Positions 6,637 through 28,235 of a DNA stretch of 64,000 nt are shown here, piece after piece. A program made the position numbers and the translations under genes. The stretch's first letter is position 1. Each line of letters starts with the position of its first letter. The notes below the pieces were generated by a model. It saw only the letters and a list, made by a program, of their open reading frames with translations. It did not search any database and had not been told where the DNA came from. The DNA comes from Caldicellulosiruptor morganii (GTDB taxonomy: Bacteria > Bacillota > Thermoanaerobacteria > Caldicellulosiruptorales > Caldicellulosiruptoraceae): contig NZ_CP113865.1 in assembly GCF_026810225.1 (NCBI RefSeq), positions 1,508,001-1,572,000 on the forward strand, read 5' to 3'.

Positions 6637-7014
6637 TTATTTGTTTTTCTGCTGTCTGGCAATCTTGATTGCCTCAGCCCAGGTGTTTCGCATCTCCTCA
6701 ACAATTTCAAGTGCTTCCTGCAGATATTTTTTGTCTTTTTTAAGATTTGCCTGAATAAGCCACCTGTATACAAAGTCATACAGGCTCATGAGATTTTTAG
6801 AAATCTCATAGCTCATATCAAGTGTTGACATAAGCTCTGTAATTATATTCTCTGCCTTGATTATGTTCTCATTTGCCCTGTCAAGCTTTTTCTCATCAAT
6901 TGCCTGCATGGCAAGCTTTATAAACCTTATACACCCATCATAAAGCATAAGCGTCAGTTCCTCGGGCGGCTTTGTCATTATAATCTGTTCCTGATATCTT
7001 GCTGCTGCATCCAT
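6637..7014 (-). CDS. fliS: Flagellin export chaperone FliS
   Basis: FliS binds the disordered C-terminus of flagellin and keeps it unfolded until export; in Bacillus it also affects the FliW-CsrA switch by sequestering flagellin. The 125-residue helical protein has the family opening YQEQIIMTKPPEELTLMLYDG and the LSLYDFVYRWL-like central helix. It lies between fliD and the fliT-like gene. Confidence 0.93.
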   Translation of the reverse strand: MDAAARYQEQIIMTKPPEELTLMLYDGCIRFIKLAMQAIDEKKLDRANENIIKAENIITELMSTLDMSYEISKNLMSLYDFVYRWLIQANLKKDKKYLQEALEIVEEMRNTWAEAIKIARQQKNK

Positions 7015-14024: not shown

Positions 14025-16577
14025 TTATTCCAATTCTTTATTAGTAAAAACTACAATGGTTCTATTGTCCCCTTGTGTTGTTTTCCATTTACCCAATATC
14101 TCATAAGGTACACCAAAATGATCAAGTAGTTCCTTTTCAGTTTTAAAATATTTTTTAACTTCCTTAATCCAACTCTGTCTGTATATTCCTGATTCTTCTG
14201 CATGTCCTGTATCAAAAATAAGATATTTACTTTTTCTTAAGAGTTTATAAAAAACTTCATCCGCCTTTTCCTTTCCATAATTGTAAAATATATGATGATA
14301 AACGCTTAAAAATAAAATTACATCAGCAGGAAATGGTAAATCATCCTTTACAATATCAAGCTGAATAAAATTATAATCATTAGGTAACATTAACTCTTCT
14401 CTAGAAGAAATATCAATTCCCAAAACATTGATTCCGTACTTAATAAAACCATAAGATAATTCACCTCGATTACACCCCACATCGATAAGTAGTTTTGGCT
14501 TAACTTTTAAAACAAATTTTTCCACTATAGATTTTTTATTTTCATCAATATAACTTTGATATTTCCCATCAAAAGCTCCTATATAATTTTGTGCAATTTG
14601 CTCCTTATAAAATTCCAAATTTTTCTCCATATATGGAGCCCAATAAGCTGGTAATAATGATATAATCTGTCCTCTTTCTTTATCCAAAAACGAGTTTTTT
14701 AATACATAAACTGGAATATTATCAAAACCCAAATACTTTGCAATAGCAACTCTATGCCGTCCACTAATAACCCAAAGTTTTATATGATCTGGAATTCTAA
14801 CACTAACTGTTTTACCATTAGAAAAAGTTAAACCTTTTAAATGTCCGTCGTTTATGAAAGTAACAATTGGTTTTTTTATTAATCCATCCCGTTTAATTAC
14901 ATTAAACAATTGAATAAACCTGTCTATAATTATTTCAGGTTTATTTAAATAATAACCTTTCTTGTAAACATCAAGTAAAAAAGCATAATATAATGTTTTC
15001 TGATAAGGAACACCTTTATCAATAAATTCATATAAAAAATCTAACATATATCTAATATTATCGTGCAAAAGCATATCAGGTGACAGATAATTTGTTAAAT
15101 AATTGTATTTTCCCAACTTATATTCCAAGTCTTCTTCATATCTTTGAACATCTACTGACATGTTTACTGAAATTGGATCAATGACAATAATATTGGTTTT
15201 ACTTATAGTGATACTTTCTTTGGAATAATACATTTCTATATCTTTATTCTGCTTGTTTGATATTAATTCTTGTAACAAACCTTTAATTTTAATATTCTGT
15301 TGCTTAAGAGAGTAATTTGCCTCAATAAATGCTCTATATTTAGCAGAATCATAATCTTCAGATAATATCATTTCTACAGCCTCATCAATTGTATCCCATA
15401 TTAGATACGAAGGATATATCTCTCTTGCTGCCACAAAATTATGTATCACTGGTTTTATTCCTTTTGCCATTGCTTCCATAATACTCATATTTTGAGACTC
15501 CGAAATGCTACAACATAAAACATAATTTTTATCTTCTAACCATGAATTTATATCTTTTTGCCATCCATCGAATATTACATGCTCCTCTAAACCCATTTCT
15601 TTAAGCATATATTTAAAATACATCATGTTTTCTTCATCTTGAAATTCCCCTGCAATGAATAAACGATATCTTTTATCAATTCTTCTTAATTTACTAATTA
15701 TCTGCAATAACAAATTGGGAGACTTTCTATAATTTAAATAACCAACATAAGCTAAATTGAAACCTTTCTCTCTTTTCCTAAAATTGTAATCTTCCATACG
15801 AATACCATTTGGTATAACACTACTTTTATTTTTAATATTACCTTTCAATTTTGAATTTACAATATCAAAAATATGAGATGCCACAAATATTACTTTATCT
15901 ATATTTTCCCATTCAACTTTAAATATATAATTTGTGAATGCTTCATACCTATGAATTCGGCATATTAACTTTTTCTCTCTCGCAAGCTCATGCCTGCTCC
16001 CATATATCACAAGCTCATCACACCACTCAAACCAACAAATATCAGCCCATTGCATACCTTCGTCAATTTGTTTAAAGTCAGTTACAATAATTTTTCGGAC
16101 AAAGTATTCATCCATTAAGCCTAATATAACGTCCTCTATAAAACTATCCAAACCAGCTTTAACAAAGAAAGATATCTTAGTATCGCTAACAGACGAAGCA
16201 ATATTTTCATGAACTTTTAATTTCTCTAAAACATCTTTCTTTTCTTCCTCAATCTTTGAAAACTCCAATGCTCTTTTGAAGTATCTTATTGCTGTTTGTA
16301 TATCTCCTTCGGATTCAAAAACACACCCCAAATTAAAGTACAAATCAGAATATGTGGAATCTATCAATAAACCTTTCTTGAAAATTTCTTTTGCTTTATC
16401 CAACTCATTTTTCGCATAATAAATAACACCTTTAAAAGAAAGCATTTCCACATCATTTAGTACTACTTTTTCGTATTGACGGATAATCTCTAAAGCATAA
16501 TCTAAATCGCCTTTTTCTATAAGGTCTTTTAACATGCTTTTTATCCTTGTTATTCTATTTAAAATCTCTTTACTCAC
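14025..16577 (-). CDS. TPR - glycosyltransferase - ParB-like - methyltransferase fusion
   Basis: An 850-residue protein with four parts. Residues 1-125 hold tetratricopeptide-like helices (YSDLYFNLGCVFESEGDIQTA). About 135-440 form a GT-B glycosyltransferase of GT4 type with SVIPNGI, LAYVGYLNYRKSP and an E-x7-E motif (E360, E368). About 565-630 hold a ParB/sulfiredoxin-like segment with VISGRHRVAIAKYLGF. About 690-845 form a SAM methyltransferase with motif I DVGCNRGELSYG (699-710). It follows the GT2-TPR gene downstream of hag, so it probably modifies flagellin by adding a sugar and methylating it. The sugar, and the role of the ParB-like part, are unknown. Confidence 0.75.
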   Translation of the reverse strand: MSKEILNRITRIKSMLKDLIEKGDLDYALEIIRQYEKVVLNDVEMLSFKGVIYYAKNELDKAKEIFKKGLLIDSTYSDLYFNLGCVFESEGDIQTAIRYFKRALEFSKIEEEKKDVLEKLKVHENIASSVSDTKISFFVKAGLDSFIEDVILGLMDEYFVRKIIVTDFKQIDEGMQWADICWFEWCDELVIYGSRHELAREKKLICRIHRYEAFTNYIFKVEWENIDKVIFVASHIFDIVNSKLKGNIKNKSSVIPNGIRMEDYNFRKREKGFNLAYVGYLNYRKSPNLLLQIISKLRRIDKRYRLFIAGEFQDEENMMYFKYMLKEMGLEEHVIFDGWQKDINSWLEDKNYVLCCSISESQNMSIMEAMAKGIKPVIHNFVAAREIYPSYLIWDTIDEAVEMILSEDYDSAKYRAFIEANYSLKQQNIKIKGLLQELISNKQNKDIEMYYSKESITISKTNIIVIDPISVNMSVDVQRYEEDLEYKLGKYNYLTNYLSPDMLLHDNIRYMLDFLYEFIDKGVPYQKTLYYAFLLDVYKKGYYLNKPEIIIDRFIQLFNVIKRDGLIKKPIVTFINDGHLKGLTFSNGKTVSVRIPDHIKLWVISGRHRVAIAKYLGFDNIPVYVLKNSFLDKERGQIISLLPAYWAPYMEKNLEFYKEQIAQNYIGAFDGKYQSYIDENKKSIVEKFVLKVKPKLLIDVGCNRGELSYGFIKYGINVLGIDISSREELMLPNDYNFIQLDIVKDDLPFPADVILFLSVYHHIFYNYGKEKADEVFYKLLRKSKYLIFDTGHAEESGIYRQSWIKEVKKYFKTEKELLDHFGVPYEILGKWKTTQGDNRTIVVFTNKELE

Positions 16578-16616
16578 TTTTTAATCCCACTCCTCAAGTA
16601 CAAATTGAAACAATAA

Positions 16617-18932
16617 TTAATTTAGATTCCGATACAATTTACGTTGTAAATACACTATTTTGTCTTCTATTTCTTTATCTTTTACAAAATTAAGCAACTT
16701 TCTATATTGTTCTAAAGCTTTCAAGTCATCACCCATAAGTTCATAAACATAACCCAGATTATAATTTAAATTATCATCTTCAGGATACAACTTTAAACCA
16801 TTTTTTAGCAGGGAAACCGCAGATGCAAAATCTCTCTTATTTATCTTAATCATTGCTCTCAAACTATAAATATCTGGATCACTTTTTACTAATTTCTCGT
16901 ATTCGTCTACCAATCTTTCCGCTTCTTCTAAAAAACCCTGGTCAACTAACCCCTTTATCTTATTTTTTACAACATTTTTATACATTTCAAATTCGGCATT
17001 AAAGAATTTAGAATCAGCCACTTTGTTAGCAGACTTTTCAATTAGTTTTTTTATACCATCTGCCATATAAGGGTATATTTCTACTGCTTTTCTAACATAT
17101 TCTTTTCTCTTCTCTAAATCATGTTCTCTTATTATTAATCGCACAAATGCAAAAAATCTATCGTTATCAAAGCGAATAATTTCCGGATTTTTTTCTAAAA
17201 TCTCTTCTCTGTATATTTTCTCAATATACTGAATTCCAGTATCAATATAACTATTAAAAACTCTTTCAAAAGGTATATCAATTTTCTTTTCATAGTAAAC
17301 ATTTAAGACCTGATGATATAACAACAATTTCTTTAAAAAAATATTAATATTTTCACCGAATTTTTCTATCTGGCTTTCAAGAGCAGTTATCCATTCTTCA
17401 ATACTTTCGAAATATTTTTTTGCTAAATACTCCACAAAAACAATCCATTTGTCGTTGCTTATTTCCTCAATTATACTTAAAACCTCCAACTTCATTACTA
17501 ATGAATAATATATAATATCTGCATAGTAAAAAGGTAACATATCAAAATTTTCCTTTTCAAAAAACATTTGAAGTATCTTTTTTGCATTTTCAAGCTTTCC
17601 TTCTATAAAATCGAATCTTACATTGTTCAAAGCACCATACAAACTATCATCTTTCATAAAAACTTCACTATAGCTTAAAAATAATTTTTCATTGTTTCTT
17701 TCCAAAAGATTAAATTCAATATTAGCAATAATTTTGTCAAGCCATTCGTTGCTTTCTTTTTTTAATTGTTGGTAATAAGCAAATAAATCTTCTATTTTTA
17801 CATTTTCAAAGCAAATTCTAATTATAAGCTTTAAAGCTTCATCTATCACACTTTTACTTCTTACTTTACAAGCAAAAGAAAGAGCTTTATCATATTCTTC
17901 TTTCTCTTTATAAAGCTTGGCTAAAATCATATAAACCTCATCTTTTAATCCAACCGTAAACAATTCTACACTTGGATTTTTTGTAATTTTCAAATCAGAA
18001 AACTTTTCAAGCAATTTTAGATAACTAATAAAATCTTTAATTGCATAATTTTCTCTCTTTTTCATTAAATTAATTTTAGCCCGATAATAATACAAATCAA
18101 TAAATTCAGGTTCTAACTTAATACCTTCATCACAAACTTCAAAAGCCTTATCTATTTCATTATTTGCTATATAACACTTTACAATATGTTGATATAAAAA
18201 CAAAAAATGAACTCTAAACTCAAAAGGTATTCTTTTCTGCATAAGCTCGTAAGCTTTTTCAGCAACTTCTAAAGCTTCTTTATAATCTTTATGCATTAAG
18301 TAAGAAGCTGAAAGCTGATAAAGATAGTAAATATTTTCTGGTTCTTCTTCTAATTTCTTTTTTAAAAGAGCAGAAGTTCTTTTGAATTTTTTTTCTACCA
18401 ATTCATTATCAGTAGATATATAACCATAATGAATTAACATAACATCAAGGTGTTTCACTGGACCTTTCGATTTAGGTAAGTTGTGTATAAAACCTTCATA
18501 ACAAAATGTTCCATCATTTCTAAAAAGTCTTTCTGAAGCAACAATTGAGAAATTGTCATTCTCAATATCAAGTAAATTCTTTACTAAAATTGTAATTGTA
18601 TTATAATCCTTACTTTCTTTACTACACAGAAAATTATATAAAATTTTTCCGTCTTCTGCTCTCAATTCTTCATCAGCATCAATTATAAATATCCACTCAC
18701 CTTGAGCCTTTGATATACTAAAATTCCTTGCTGCAGAAAAATCATTTTTCCATTCATAAAAATAAACCTTTTCTGTATACCTCTTCGCAATTTCAACTGT
18801 TTTATCAGCTGAACCAGTGTCCACAATAATCAATTCAACATCTTTATTTTCTGTCAATTCTTTTAAAGAGTCTAAACATCTCGGTAAATTTTTTTCTTCA
18901 TCTTTTACTATCATGCATATACTTAATAACAT
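16617..18932 (-). CDS. GT2 glycosyltransferase with long TPR tail (probable flagellin glycosylation)
   Basis: The 771-residue protein begins with a GT2 domain: LLSICMIVKDEEKNLPRCL, VDTGSADKT and the DxD-type motif at D85-A-D87. A long helical tail of tetratricopeptide-like repeats follows, ending in SDPDIYSLRAMI, ...LNYNLGYVYELMGDDLKA. GT2-TPR proteins next to flagellin genes commonly add O-linked sugars to flagellin; TPRs would hold the substrate. It lies about 85 bp downstream of hag, beyond the hag terminator, and 39 bp upstream of the fusion gene at 14025. Confidence 0.8.
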   Translation of the reverse strand: MLLSICMIVKDEEKNLPRCLDSLKELTENKDVELIIVDTGSADKTVEIAKRYTEKVYFYEWKNDFSAARNFSISKAQGEWIFIIDADEELRAEDGKILYNFLCSKESKDYNTITILVKNLLDIENDNFSIVASERLFRNDGTFCYEGFIHNLPKSKGPVKHLDVMLIHYGYISTDNELVEKKFKRTSALLKKKLEEEPENIYYLYQLSASYLMHKDYKEALEVAEKAYELMQKRIPFEFRVHFLFLYQHIVKCYIANNEIDKAFEVCDEGIKLEPEFIDLYYYRAKINLMKKRENYAIKDFISYLKLLEKFSDLKITKNPSVELFTVGLKDEVYMILAKLYKEKEEYDKALSFACKVRSKSVIDEALKLIIRICFENVKIEDLFAYYQQLKKESNEWLDKIIANIEFNLLERNNEKLFLSYSEVFMKDDSLYGALNNVRFDFIEGKLENAKKILQMFFEKENFDMLPFYYADIIYYSLVMKLEVLSIIEEISNDKWIVFVEYLAKKYFESIEEWITALESQIEKFGENINIFLKKLLLYHQVLNVYYEKKIDIPFERVFNSYIDTGIQYIEKIYREEILEKNPEIIRFDNDRFFAFVRLIIREHDLEKRKEYVRKAVEIYPYMADGIKKLIEKSANKVADSKFFNAEFEMYKNVVKNKIKGLVDQGFLEEAERLVDEYEKLVKSDPDIYSLRAMIKINKRDFASAVSLLKNGLKLYPEDDNLNYNLGYVYELMGDDLKALEQYRKLLNFVKDKEIEDKIVYLQRKLYRNLN

Positions 18933-19016: not shown

Positions 19017-20234
19017 TTACCTTAACAACTGAAGTACTGCCTGCGGCAGCTGATTTGCTTGTGCAAGCATTGCTGTTGCAGCCTGCATTAAGATATTATT
19101 TTTTGTATAATTCATCATCTCTTTTGCCATATCAACATCTCTGATTCTTGACTCAGAAGCAGTCAAGTTTTCAGAAGCTGTTCCCAAGTTGTTGATTGTA
19201 TGCTCAAGTCTATTCTGGTATGCACCAAGTCTTGAACGCTGTTCTGATACCTTTGATATAGCATTGTCCAAAACAGCTATAGCTGCGCTTGCTGCATATT
19301 TTGTGTTAACTTTTATAGTATTACCATTATTATCGATTACACCTAAGTCTATTCCTTTCATACTGTCAATTCCTATTTGCATTGTTTGCCCTGTATTCGC
19401 ACCAATCTGTGTTGTAATAGCCTTTGAAGTATCTGTTTGAGCATCTTGATATGCTGTTAATGTCAATGTAATACTTTCACCTACTTTCATATTATCAATA
19501 TTCTGAAGTTTTAATGTAACCGCACTTGTTGCTAAAACAGTGTCCTCAAATTCTACTATTAATGTAATACCACTTACACTCAAGTTTACTCCTACAGTTG
19601 AACCTGTACCATTTGCAATTTTATTACCGAAAGAATCGCGAATCTCAAAATTGCCATATGTGGTTCCAGTACCAATTCTTACAATTGTAATAGCACCATT
19701 TACTTTAGAGCCATTCTGAATTGCAGCTTCGGATACAACCTGTATATCATCCGATGTTAGAGAACTATTGTTATTGATACCATACGTACCATTAACAGCT
19801 GGTTTTATTCCTATCACTGTTCCGTCAAGTAGCTTTTTTGTATTAAACTCAGTTGTGTTAGCAATTCTATCAATTTCACTAACTAATTGATCTACCTCAT
19901 TTTGAATAGCATTTCTGTCAGCATCGGTGTTTGTATCATTTGCTGCTTGAACTGCAAGCTCTCTCATTCTCTGTAAGATTGAGTGTACTTCATTTAGCGC
20001 ACCTTCTGCCGTCTGGATAAGAGAAATTGCATCCTGCGCATTTCTCTGAGCTTGGTTCAAACCTCTTATCTGGCTTCTCATTTTTTCTGAAATTGCCAAG
20101 CCAGCTGCATCATCGCCAGCTCTGTTAATTCTCATACCAGATGAAAGTTTTTCAAGTGACTTTGCTAAAGCGTCATTGTTGATTGTTAGCCTGTTATAAG
20201 TATTTAGCGCCTGAATGTTGTTATTAATACGCAT
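19017..20234 (-). CDS. hag: Flagellin
   Basis: Flagellin forms the filament. The 405-residue protein has both conserved helical ends: MRINNNIQALNTYNRL with LSSGMRINRAGDDAAGLAIS at the N-terminus, and ASENLTASESRIRDVDMAKEM ending in AVLQLLR at the C-terminus. The central part (about 140-330) is Ser/Thr/Asn-rich, surface exposed and a likely glycosylation target for the two enzymes downstream. Transcription is from a sigma-D promoter; translation is probably repressed by CsrA at the leader hairpin. A single flagellin gene is seen in this window. Confidence 0.97.
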   Translation of the reverse strand: MRINNNIQALNTYNRLTINNDALAKSLEKLSSGMRINRAGDDAAGLAISEKMRSQIRGLNQAQRNAQDAISLIQTAEGALNEVHSILQRMRELAVQAANDTNTDADRNAIQNEVDQLVSEIDRIANTTEFNTKKLLDGTVIGIKPAVNGTYGINNNSSLTSDDIQVVSEAAIQNGSKVNGAITIVRIGTGTTYGNFEIRDSFGNKIANGTGSTVGVNLSVSGITLIVEFEDTVLATSAVTLKLQNIDNMKVGESITLTLTAYQDAQTDTSKAITTQIGANTGQTMQIGIDSMKGIDLGVIDNNGNTIKVNTKYAASAAIAVLDNAISKVSEQRSRLGAYQNRLEHTINNLGTASENLTASESRIRDVDMAKEMMNYTKNNILMQAATAMLAQANQLPQAVLQLLR

Positions 20235-20266
20235 CTTACAACACCCTCCCTGAAATTAATTTTTTT

Positions 20267-20286
20267 GCTTCACGTCCCTGTGAAGC
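20267..20286 (-). promoter_or_regulatory. Putative CsrA-binding hairpin in the flagellin leader
   Basis: The leader RNA contains a perfect 7-bp stem GCTTCAC/GTGAAGC with loop AGGGAC. The segment ACAGGGACGT matches the CsrA consensus ACARGGAUGU with one change and presents GGA in the loop. A second GGA lies in the ribosome-binding site AGGGAGGG about 25 nt downstream. This two-site layout is the same as that of the Bacillus hag leader, and csrA and fliW are encoded 3 kb upstream. Confidence 0.8.
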
Positions 20287-20307
20287 TTTATTTTGTTTTC
20301 AATAAAA

Positions 20308-20335
20308 TTATCGGTAGGATGGTTTTGTGAGTTTA
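20308..20335 (-). promoter_or_regulatory. Sigma-D type promoter of flagellin
   Basis: TAAA (20332-20335) and CCGATAA (20308-20314) on the minus strand are 17 bp apart, about 75 bp before the hag start codon. This leaves room for the CsrA hairpin in the leader. Confidence 0.88.
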
Positions 20336-21975: not shown

Positions 21976-22395
21976 TCAAATTCCACAGTATTCTATAAAC
22001 TTACTTAAAATTAATTCTATATCAGCTAATTTATTTTTAAATATATTGTATACAACATGCAAATCTATTTTGGCATATTCATGGGCAATTATATTTCTAA
22101 ACTGAATCATAGACCTGAAAATCTGCATCTCATTTTCATTTAATATCTTTGCACGTTTTAAAATAACAGGTATATCGCTATAAGCTGAAGGTTCTCCTAA
22201 ACCGTTATCTGAAATAATGTGATTCCCTATGTCAATAAGATTTTGGACAATCAAAAACAGATTGAAAACCACAACATCTTGAGCTATTTCATCTTCTAAA
22301 AATTGTTCTAATGTAAAATTTGAAAACAGTCTAATTTTTTTTAAACTTGCCTTTATACTCTCAATCTTTTGAGTTAAAATCTCTCTCTTTACCAT
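21976..22395 (-). CDS. HepT-like HEPN protein, copy 1 (putative RNase toxin)
   Basis: The 139-residue HepT-type protein has the full R-x4-H-x-Y motif: R100, H105 and Y107 in FRNIIAHEYAKID. In characterised MntA/HepT pairs HepT is an RNase and MntA adds AMP units to the tyrosine of this motif, switching it off. I chose ATG 22395, inside the 3' end of the MNT gene, over a longer frame that overlaps more. It closely resembles copy 2 at 23531-23950, with the motif at identical positions and a shared VQNLIDIGNHII segment (QNLIDIGNHII in both). Confidence 0.9.
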   Translation of the reverse strand: MVKREILTQKIESIKASLKKIRLFSNFTLEQFLEDEIAQDVVVFNLFLIVQNLIDIGNHIISDNGLGEPSAYSDIPVILKRAKILNENEMQIFRSMIQFRNIIAHEYAKIDLHVVYNIFKNKLADIELILSKFIEYCGI

Positions 22396-22801
22396 GCAAA
22401 AAATACTCCCTTTGATAAAGTGCACAAATTTCAAGGTATCTCTTTTTGTCCATGTATTCATAAAAGTTTTTTACTCTAACATCAACATATAAATCATGAT
22501 CTTTGTCAATTACCAATATACCATCACTAAAAACCTCATGCTTCAAAAGAGGATCAGCATCATTCAAAATAACAAAGTCCACTTTTTTATTCAGAATCTT
22601 TTCAAGATGCTCTTTTGTATCAAGTTGATATAACAGATCTTCGGTTGCGTCTTTGCTTTTTTTGATGTATGCAGCAACATCAATGTCGCTTGATTTGTTG
22701 GCATTTCCCCTTGCATATGAACCAAAAAGATATGCAAATATAACCTTATCATCCTTCTCAAAATATTCTCTCAAAATCTTTACAATCTCATCTTTCACCA
22801 T
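22361..22801 (-). CDS. MntA-like nucleotidyltransferase, copy 1 (putative antitoxin)
   Basis: The 146-residue protein has the minimal-nucleotidyltransferase signature G27-S28-x10-D39-x-D41 in FGSYARGNANKSSDIDVAAYI and a VDFVILNDADPLLKHEVFSDG segment typical of this subgroup. It probably adenylylates its HepT partner. Its start overlaps the csrA stop by 14 bp and its stop overlaps the HepT start, so csrA, mntA and hepT are translationally coupled. That places this toxin-antitoxin module inside a flagellar regulator operon. Confidence 0.9.
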   Translation of the reverse strand: MVKDEIVKILREYFEKDDKVIFAYLFGSYARGNANKSSDIDVAAYIKKSKDATEDLLYQLDTKEHLEKILNKKVDFVILNDADPLLKHEVFSDGILVIDKDHDLYVDVRVKNFYEYMDKKRYLEICALYQREYFLHGKERDFNSKD

Positions 22802-23030
22802 CTTTTAATAGTCCTTTCAAATCTTTGATTCTAATTAGTCTTTCTTTGCCCTGCAGTGCTTCAAGATTTTCGTTTTTGAGCTCTTGAAGCAGTTCATATC
22901 GCAAAACCTTGACGTTTTTGGGTGCATCTATTCCAAGCTTTACGCTATCTTTTTCTATGCTTATAACCATTACTATTATATCCTCTCCAATTAGAATCTG
23001 CTCACCTTCTTTTCGCGAAAGAACAAGCAT
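22788..23030 (-). CDS. csrA: Carbon storage regulator / translational repressor CsrA
   Basis: CsrA is a dimeric RNA-binding protein that represses flagellin translation in Bacillus by covering the ribosome-binding site. The 80-residue protein has the conserved MLVLSRKEGEQILIGEDI, IVMVISIEKDSVKLGIDAPK and a C-terminal helix. It lies 12 bp after fliW, the usual pairing. Its likely target, the hag leader hairpin, is at 20267-20286. Confidence 0.96.
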   Translation of the reverse strand: MLVLSRKEGEQILIGEDIIVMVISIEKDSVKLGIDAPKNVKVLRYELLQELKNENLEALQGKERLIRIKDLKGLLKDGER

Positions 23031-23042
23031 CTTCTGTATACC

Positions 23043-23501
23043 TCATTTCTGTGAATTTGGATCCAAGTTTTCAAAAAGGTAGTATCTTATAGGATATCTT
23101 TCATCATCCAAAAGATACTGCATACCCTTTCTTCTGTTTACATTAATAATAACCGGGGCTTTTAGATTCACTCTTGTTTGCTTTACATCCTCTGAAATTA
23201 CAACAATGCAAAAGACTGCAACATCTTGTGAAGACTCTATTTCCAGTTTCTTTACAATATCATCCGGTATGTCAAATTCATAATCTGGCTTTATTTCAAA
23301 AGGATTTATCAGCACAAATGCAATGTCTTTGTCTTCAACAGACTGAAGCCAGTAAAATGGGCTTTCATCTTCTTTGACAATTACAAACTTTTTCAGGTTC
23401 TCAAACGCAGGAATGCCATCTTCAAAAAATATAATACTGTCTTCACTGACTTCAAGCTCGCCAAAAACTCTTGATTTTACAACTGATTTTTGCACAACCA
23501 T
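23043..23501 (-). CDS. fliW: Flagellar assembly factor FliW (CsrA antagonist)
   Basis: FliW binds CsrA and relieves repression of flagellin; free flagellin in turn binds FliW, giving a three-partner homeostatic switch. The 152-residue protein shows the family opening with FGELEVSEDSIIFFEDGIPAFE and FYWLQSVEDKDIAFVLINPF. It immediately precedes csrA. Confidence 0.95.
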   Translation of the reverse strand: MVVQKSVVKSRVFGELEVSEDSIIFFEDGIPAFENLKKFVIVKEDESPFYWLQSVEDKDIAFVLINPFEIKPDYEFDIPDDIVKKLEIESSQDVAVFCIVVISEDVKQTRVNLKAPVIINVNRRKGMQYLLDDERYPIRYYLFENLDPNSQK

Positions 23502-23530: not shown

Positions 23531-23950
23531 TTATAGATTTGCATACTTTATAATCTCATCAATAATTCTATTTATATCATCAATACCATTAATTAGAATA
23601 TCATAAACTTTTGCCAGATCAATTTTAGAATATTCATGAACAATTATATTGCGAAAAGAAATCATTTTCTTAAAAATTAAAGCTAAACTTTCTGAAATAA
23701 CCTTTTCTTTTGATAGAATCTGCGGAATCTCACCATAATAACCCGGTGTTTCAAAAACATCATCGGCTATTATATGATTTCCTATGTCTATTAGATTCTG
23801 TATTGCCAAAAAAAGATTGTGAACGACTATGTCCTGAGCATCCTGATCCTTTTTGAATTCTTCAAAACTCATATTCTGAAATCTTTTTATTCTATTTAGG
23901 CAAAACACTATCCTATCTATTTTCTCACTGACAAGTGCCTTTTTTACCAT
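23531..23950 (-). CDS. HepT-like HEPN protein, copy 2 (putative RNase toxin)
   Basis: The 139-residue protein is a paralogue of copy 1, with R100-x4-H105-x-Y107 in FRNIIVHEYSKID. It follows and overlaps its MntA partner (26 bp) and ends 29 bp before fliW. It lies between the yviE-like gene and fliW, which are direct neighbours in Bacillus, so the pair is an insertion into the conserved string. Confidence 0.9.
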   Translation of the reverse strand: MVKKALVSEKIDRIVFCLNRIKRFQNMSFEEFKKDQDAQDIVVHNLFLAIQNLIDIGNHIIADDVFETPGYYGEIPQILSKEKVISESLALIFKKMISFRNIIVHEYSKIDLAKVYDILINGIDDINRIIDEIIKYANL

Positions 23951-24368
23951 TATCTGCTATCCTCTCTTTTATATACATCATCTTAATCTTCATAATATGC
24001 AGCCAGTCCTGATAGTAATAGAAACTCATCTTTTTAAAATTTACTAACCTATCATGGTCTTTTTCAATAATCAAAATGCCTTCTGAAATTACTTCGTGTC
24101 TCAAAAGCGGTGAAGCCTGATTCAAAATTACAAGGTCAACTTCTTTTCTTAGAATGTCTGAAATACCTATCATATGTTTGATCTGAAATTCCAATAACCT
24201 TTTAGAATCATTTGCCAGTTCCTCATCTACATATACAGCAATGTCAACATCGCTATTTTCATTTGCTTTCCCTTTTGCATACGACCCAAACAGATATGCA
24301 AATACAATGGTATTTTCTTTTTCAAAACATTCCTTTAAAACTTCCAAAATCCTGCTCTTTTCAATCAT
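23925..24368 (-). CDS. MntA-like nucleotidyltransferase, copy 2 (putative antitoxin)
   Basis: The 147-residue protein has G28-S29-x10-D40-x-D42 in FGSYAKGKANENSDVDIAVYV and the VDLVILNQASPLLRHEVISEG segment that parallels copy 1. Its ATG overlaps the stop of the yviE-like gene by 4 bp (ATGA type), the mark of translational coupling to the flagellar operon. It is the likely AMP-transferring antitoxin of HepT copy 2. Confidence 0.9.
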   Translation of the reverse strand: MIEKSRILEVLKECFEKENTIVFAYLFGSYAKGKANENSDVDIAVYVDEELANDSKRLLEFQIKHMIGISDILRKEVDLVILNQASPLLRHEVISEGILIIEKDHDRLVNFKKMSFYYYQDWLHIMKIKMMYIKERIADNGKKGTCQ

Positions 24369-27339: not shown

Positions 27340-27366
27340 ATCTTTTTCAACTCCTTTTGAAAATTT

Positions 27367-27855
27367 TTAAAGCTTTATGTCAAACATATTCTTTTTTGTG
27401 AGCTTGCTTTGCCCGTCTTTCTGGTAAGTTGTGTCGTCGGTGAAATAGGATGAGACTAAATTTGTCATAAAATCTATGTATTCAAGCGAACTTTGAATAA
27501 GGCTCAAATTCAAATGATTTACCCTTTTTATCTCCTCAACAAGCTTACCTATTGAACTTTTTAACTCAATCAGCCTCTTTTGCTGAACACCGTCACAAAG
27601 CTCTATAAGGTCATCAAGTGATGAAACCTCTTTATTTTTTCCTTTCAAAAGTTCGGCAATCAACCTCTGTCGCGCTTCTTCCAACCTTTTTATCTCATCT
27701 GCCTTCTGTTTTTCGAAAGTAGATTGTTCTATAAGGGCTGAGATGTTGTTCTCAACTATGAATTTTGTTTTGGAGCAAAATAACTCAAGTATCTCTTTTA
27801 AAATGCTTTGCTCTTTTTCCAGAATTTCAATTACACCATTTACATTCTGGATCAT
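27367..27855 (-). CDS. flgN: FlgN-like export chaperone
   Basis: FlgN-type proteins are cytoplasmic chaperones for FlgK and FlgL. This 162-residue protein is helical and rich in Glu/Lys/Leu (ILEKEQSILKEILELF; LLKGKNKEVSSLDDLIELC) and lies directly before flgK, as yvyG does in Bacillus. Assignment is by position and helical character. Confidence 0.8.
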   Translation of the reverse strand: MIQNVNGVIEILEKEQSILKEILELFCSKTKFIVENNISALIEQSTFEKQKADEIKRLEEARQRLIAELLKGKNKEVSSLDDLIELCDGVQQKRLIELKSSIGKLVEEIKRVNHLNLSLIQSSLEYIDFMTNLVSSYFTDDTTYQKDGQSKLTKKNMFDIKL

Positions 27856-27947: not shown

Positions 27948-28235
27948 TTAGAACTGTTTGGTTTGTTGTTTATATTCTCTTATCAGCTTTTCCACAACGT
28001 CCTTTGCACTTACACTGTAGGTGCCTGACTCAATTTTGCTCTTTATCTCATTTACTTTTTCCTCTCGAATATCAGGTGTTGATTTTATGGCATTCAGAAT
28101 TGTCTGAAAATCCCTTGCCTCGCTTGAGATTTCAAGCTTATCTGCATTTTTTACATCCTGTTTTTTTTCTACCCTGTTCACTTTTGTGCCACTGCTGTAT
28201 ATCTGGAATATCCTCATTCTGTCTTCTATTCTCAT
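27948..28235 (-). CDS. flgM: Anti-sigma-D factor FlgM
   Basis: FlgM binds and inhibits the flagellar sigma factor until hook completion allows its export or release. The 95-residue protein has a disordered N-terminus and a conserved C-terminal region (ADKLEISSEARDFQTILNAI, PDIREEKVNEIKSKIESGTY, VSAKDVVEKLI). It is preceded by its own sigma-D type promoter, giving feedback control. Confidence 0.92.
   Translation of the reverse strand: MRIEDRMRIFQIYSSGTKVNRVEKKQDVKNADKLEISSEARDFQTILNAIKSTPDIREEKVNEIKSKIESGTYSVSAKDVVEKLIREYKQQTKQF

Follow-up and report, generated by a model that had tools for sequence, protein, structure and literature searches.

In Bacillus subtilis, translation of the flagellin gene hag is controlled by a two-site switch: CsrA on both leader sites keeps the ribosome out, FliW detaches CsrA but does not compete for the RNA, and cytoplasmic flagellin occupies FliW (PMC6529632, PMC7652899 and PMC6070490). 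Of the two B. subtilis sites, BS1 covers A51–A55 and BS2 covers C75–G82, over the Shine-Dalgarno (PMC8523840), while FliW antagonism acts at the CsrA C-terminal extension, and a CsrA bridging range of 10–63 nt, with an optimum above 18 nt, is cited (both PMC7652899). In Campylobacter jejuni, the two sites of the flaA leader are separated by 21 nt (PMC4894983). Here, we compare with these systems the flagellin leader in a window of 64,000 nucleotides from the 2.48-Mb, one-contig genome of the thermophile Caldicellulosiruptor morganii. We are highly confident, from sequence comparison, that this leader belongs to a FliW–CsrA–Hag flagellin homeostasis module, and we describe a second, apparently undescribed stem-loop in the flagellin leaders of many relatives.

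Organization of the hag leader

Encoded on the minus strand, hag starts at an ATG at 20234. Moving upstream from this ATG come the Shine-Dalgarno, which reads CAGGGAGGG, a short linker of A and T, the BS1 hairpin, 21 nt of A/T-rich sequence, CCGATA and TAAA. The features, all on the minus strand, are as follows:

19017..20234, minus strand: hag, flagellin of 405 aa (Flagellin_N and Flagellin_C; NCBIfam flagellin Hag over cut-off)
20245..20252, minus strand: candidate CsrA site BS2, CAGGGAGG, overlapping the Shine-Dalgarno (CAN-type context enriched in flagellins)
20267..20286, minus strand: candidate CsrA high-affinity site BS1, 7-bp hairpin GCTTCAC-AGGGAC-GTGAAGC (conservation, covariation, shuffles)
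20274..20279, minus strand: BS1 hexaloop AGGGAC, of the form ANGGAN (loop conservation)
20309..20314, minus strand: sigma-D -10 element CCGATA (sequence and order-wide conservation)
20332..20335, minus strand: sigma-D -35 element TAAA (order-wide conservation)

The sigma-D-type arrangement TAAA-N17-CCGATA occurred in all 13 genomes of the order, and in every one the -10 element and the hairpin were 21 nt apart, in agreement with the sigma-D promoter that the first-pass annotation had placed in this leader. We infer that the hag transcript starts a few bases 3' of the -10 element. Just downstream of hag, two large genes (14025-18932) appeared by eye to be glycosyltransferase-like with repeats, possibly serving flagellin glycosylation.

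The candidate CsrA hairpin is conserved in its loop and covaries in its stem

The perfect leader hairpin with a loop matching the CsrA site, as originally proposed, proved right in both sequence and coordinates. When the 120-nt hag leader was shuffled by dinucleotides 5000 times, an equally good GGA-loop hairpin arose 3 times, and the hairpin was predicted in the context of the leader, the fold of which had a z of -3.4 (0 of 200 shuffles equally stable); across 93 flagellin leaders, the shuffle test gave P > 0.05 in 17. Five ANGGAN hairpins exceeded the threshold in the 64 kb, both strands taken together, and BS1 scored highest among them.

Conservation was followed from the genus outwards. 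The 20-nt hairpin was unchanged in all 12 genus genomes, with variable flanking bases. In the sister genus, represented by one genome, a single C-to-T stem change keeps a U-G pair. Beyond the genus, 168 of 192 distinct leaders (drawn from eighty named flagellin loci, other genomes of the class and a phylum sample, with the overlap between named loci and phylum sample removed) had a hairpin with a GGA loop, either ANGGAN or slightly longer, at the same place, and the other 24 had no recognizable CsrA hairpin. The loop A and GGA were invariant in 64 distinct rows, partly by selection (72 of the 93 leaders entered the tabulation of loops and spacings, selected because they have the A, the GGA and three or more inner pairs, positions that are thereby fixed). 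The stem changed in a compensated manner: across 44 aligned leaders of Bacillota (alignment A2, consisting of the window, G012, the row of which is without the left arm, and 42 of 59 distinct named rows), the five stem pairs were 98.1% paired, a percentage raised by the choice of rows that pair at 3 inner positions, and cells with double changes numbered 87 (23.9 in shuffles), with pairing falling to 41–46% when partner columns were slid by 1–3. In two leaders of one family (L204 and L208), the GGA hairpin seemed by eye to overlap the Shine-Dalgarno rather than to lie upstream of it.

A covariance model of the leader (R1) found the hag leader as its top match in all 12 genomes of the genus, scoring 38.7 bits in the window's genome, where the next best match reached 23.7. 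Among the weaker matches (at most 23.7 bits in the window's genome), no common recurring place was seen in the 12 genomes (for G000, scoring covered 150 of the 1708 candidates). In G008, a second match scoring 29.8 bits (G008:C1:1854293-1854343, L193) lay at a distance from the flagellin gene. An Rfam search returned tRNA alone in the window and no match at the flagellin leaders of 14 relatives. The BS1 hairpin is predicted to weaken with heat, its energy of -9.2 kcal/mol at 37 °C shrinking to -2.2 at 70 °C, to about -1.1 at 75 °C and to roughly 0 by 80 °C. In a thermophile, BS1 would accordingly be near melting unless CsrA or salt stabilizes it, and at growth temperature the free hairpin may differ from the bound one.

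A candidate second CsrA site at the Shine-Dalgarno

Most Shine-Dalgarnos contain GGA, and the second GGA that the first-pass annotation had noted there, present as CAGGGAGG, would for that reason be weak evidence when taken alone. Its context is more CsrA-like than that of other genes: CANGGAGG, with CAN ahead of GGAGG, stood at the Shine-Dalgarno in 67 of 73 flagellins (limited to those with GGAGG in the counted range) versus 26 of the 204 other genes with GGAGG in the same DNA (P = 3e-35). By eye, 10 of the 26 have the start of a second flagellin. In these counts, the discriminating part of BS2 is the preceding CAN rather than the GGA. The two GGA motifs are 28 nt apart in the window (19–33 nt, median 24, in 72 leaders), which falls within the 10–63 nt bridging range (PMC7652899) and fits the two-site bridging initially suggested.

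We weighed two other explanations of these motifs. The hairpin could be an intrinsic terminator of the plus strand, or a bidirectional one, with an accidental loop GGA. Read on the plus strand, it is followed by TTTATTTTGT and passed the terminator pattern (1 found versus 0.1 expected), but no plus-strand gene ends there, A rather than T follows the hairpin in the direction of hag, and relatives keep the ANGGAN loop, not the T-run, while the stem sequence changes freely. We consider this explanation extremely improbable, and give very little more credence to a second GGA that serves as Shine-Dalgarno alone, such that CsrA, if acting, would bind only the hairpin. The general presence of GGA in Shine-Dalgarnos, exemplified by the 204 other genes, speaks for that view; the CAN enrichment in flagellins speaks against it, as does the measured BS2 of B. 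subtilis, from C75 to G82 (PMC8523840). We retain the reading of both motifs as probable CsrA sites.

Two look-alike sites elsewhere in the window were rejected as chance occurrences. At flgK (27348-27367), the Shine-Dalgarno lies in a 7-bp hairpin with loop AAGGAG, an arrangement not conserved across the genus (12 flgK leaders), and fliS (6637-7014) has CAGGGAGG as its Shine-Dalgarno, which is not conserved in the 12 other genomes of the order (13 fliS leaders).

Protein partners and the putative switch

The window also encodes the proteins of the switch, and the fliW, csrA and fliS genes listed in the first-pass annotation all scored over profile cut-offs:

6637..7014, minus strand: fliS, flagellin export chaperone (TIGR00208 over cut-off)
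22788..23030, minus strand: csrA, with C-terminal extension (CsrA over cut-off)
23043..23501, minus strand: fliW, directly upstream of csrA (FliW over cut-off)
27948..28235, minus strand: flgM, anti-sigma-D factor (TIGR03824 over cut-off)

One FliA/WhiG-type sigma factor (sigma-28) scored over cut-off outside the window, at genome positions 1924626-1925282. The fliW gene ends 12 nt before csrA on the same strand, and csrA is single-copy in the genome; across the order, 13 genomes had one csrA apiece. CsrA (80 aa) aligns over residues 2-78, C-terminal extension included, with the CsrA of the FliW–CsrA structure 5dmb, and FliW matches 5dmb_A (E = 9e-31). Residue 43 of this CsrA is L, with H at that position in structures 1t3o, 5dmb and 7yr6, and R44, mutation of which alters CsrA RNA binding (PMC7652899), is present. 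Across 40 sampled genomes (28 with the hairpin and 12 without, picked by eye and largely in list order), FliW and CsrA were each found in all 28 genomes that have the hairpin and in 6 of the 12 that do not (Fisher P = 2.4e-4 on FliW counts), the hairpin being found only where FliW and CsrA exist. Flanking fliW-csrA are two HepT/nucleotidyltransferase pairs (21976-22801 and 23531-24368) with mutual identities of 45% and 48%, a toxin–antitoxin-like pair that is duplicated on either side of the flagellin regulator. By eye, the genes at 593-1337 look like another such pair.

The assignment of the leader to the FliW–CsrA–Hag module draws on the CsrA C-terminal extension, the adjacency of fliW and csrA, BS1, BS2 within bridging distance and the sigma-D promoter. 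Weighing against it are the predicted near-melting of the hairpin at high temperature, the L at CsrA residue 43, the 24 leaders in which no hairpin is recognizable and the occurrence of FliW in half of the sampled genomes that have no hairpin. What the DNA itself shows is the promoter, the two sites with the way they are conserved and covary, and a gene for every protein involved; CsrA binding, bridging, FliW antagonism and feedback we infer from work on B. subtilis and C. jejuni. By that analogy, sigma-D would transcribe hag, and a CsrA dimer would place one RNA-binding face on the AGGGAC hairpin and the other on the CAGGGAGG Shine-Dalgarno, blocking ribosomes; free FliW would bind the CsrA C-terminal extension and take CsrA off, allowing hag to be translated, until a build-up of cytoplasmic flagellin held FliW and CsrA repressed again. 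The earlier view that the whole Bacillus-type switch is intact in this thermophile is supported, where intact refers to its sequence components. A well-studied flagellin feedback switch that is widespread in related bacteria would thereby extend to a thermophilic genus, with a clean definition of its sites: an ANGGAN hairpin, 19–33 nt and CANGGAGG.

A second stem-loop in the flagellin leaders of relatives

Beyond the genus, 59 of the 192 distinct leaders contained a further stem-loop, the loop of which is a six-base palindrome. It follows the sigma-D -10 and precedes the CsrA hairpin, in L036, L060, L233, L254 and L279 among others. It was absent from the window's leader and from its genus, and 21 nt alone separate the -10 element from BS1 in the window. 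The palindrome varies by lineage, with CGGCCG the commonest and GGGCCC, GCGCGC, CCCGGG, TGGCCA, GTGCAC and GAGCTC also seen, such that self-complementarity is kept, and the stem sequence is free (51 distinct stems). Palindromic loops occurred in 56 of 88 distinct upstream hairpins (one of the 56, AAATTT in L081, being an unrelated repeat of the window itself upstream of the promoter and not the element), compared with 12.0 on average, and never more than 23, when the loop letters were permuted 2000 times; other windows of the same DNA had them in 64 of 1430 hairpins (4.5%). The element was present in 28 of 46 leaders non-identical to those that had suggested the idea, and in 13 of 31 once CGGCCG was removed. 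Among the 80 named loci, 27 hairpins with CGGCCG fell in flagellin leaders. Elsewhere, 733,550 bases yielded 9 records, and two second flagellin leaders, each counted on both strands, account for 4 of these.

Single flanked non-Watson–Crick positions in the stem, read on the mRNA strand, were G-U in 21 cases and A-C in 4 (P = 5e-4), an excess that points to an RNA element rather than a DNA operator. A purine stood 5' of the palindrome in 55 of 62 cases and 3' of it in 47 of 62 (one of the 62 being the genus repeat), and the stem began 4–40 nt after the -10 in 49 of the 52 stems with a recognizable -10. The leaders of 14 relatives gave no Rfam match for this element, and no description of it was found in the available portions of the literature searched; it is apparently undescribed.

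We offer, as a tentative proposal to which we assign somewhat less than an even chance, that many Bacillota flagellin leaders contain two RNA modules, with a purine-flanked palindromic loop near the 5' end that pairs two flagellin mRNAs by a kissing loop; such dimers could set transcript stability, clustering or the response to CsrA and FliW, and the window's genus would have lost or never had this module, keeping the CsrA half. It is also possible that the palindromic loop is read by a symmetric protein or pairs with another RNA. If the palindrome does pair flagellin mRNAs, it would represent a rare cellular case of regulated mRNA dimerization in bacteria. PMC6529632 leaves open by what means CsrA reduces the level of hag transcript and for what reason FliW binds the leader of hag, and the second element might bear on both questions, a link that is speculative because B. 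subtilis-type leaders (L027 and L080) are without the element.

Comparison with known systems

In its six-base GC-rich palindrome within an apical loop, the second hairpin of the relatives resembles the palindromic kissing loops of a retroviral genome element and oskar mRNA (PMC7357161), a likeness confined to the relatives, as the window and its genus, unlike those RNAs, have no such palindromic loop. As to the CsrA sites, the Clostridioides difficile fliC leader similarly has two predicted sites, TGACAAGGATGT and CTAAGGAGGG (PMC8523840), although its second site, unlike that of the window, is without the CAN context. The C. jejuni flaA leader shares an ANGGA hexaloop hairpin, a second GGA at the ribosome site and FliW as antagonist (PMC4894983), but its second site lies in a hairpin, whereas no local stem similarly holds CAGGGAGG in the window. 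Relative to Bacillus tequilensis (L080), a close relative of B. subtilis with an 11-bp stem and an 8-nt loop, the window's hairpin has 7 bp, a hexaloop and a GC-richer inner stem. Overall, the leader is like that of B. subtilis hag, in which a sigma-D-dependent flagellin gene carries two CsrA sites and fliW lies next to csrA.
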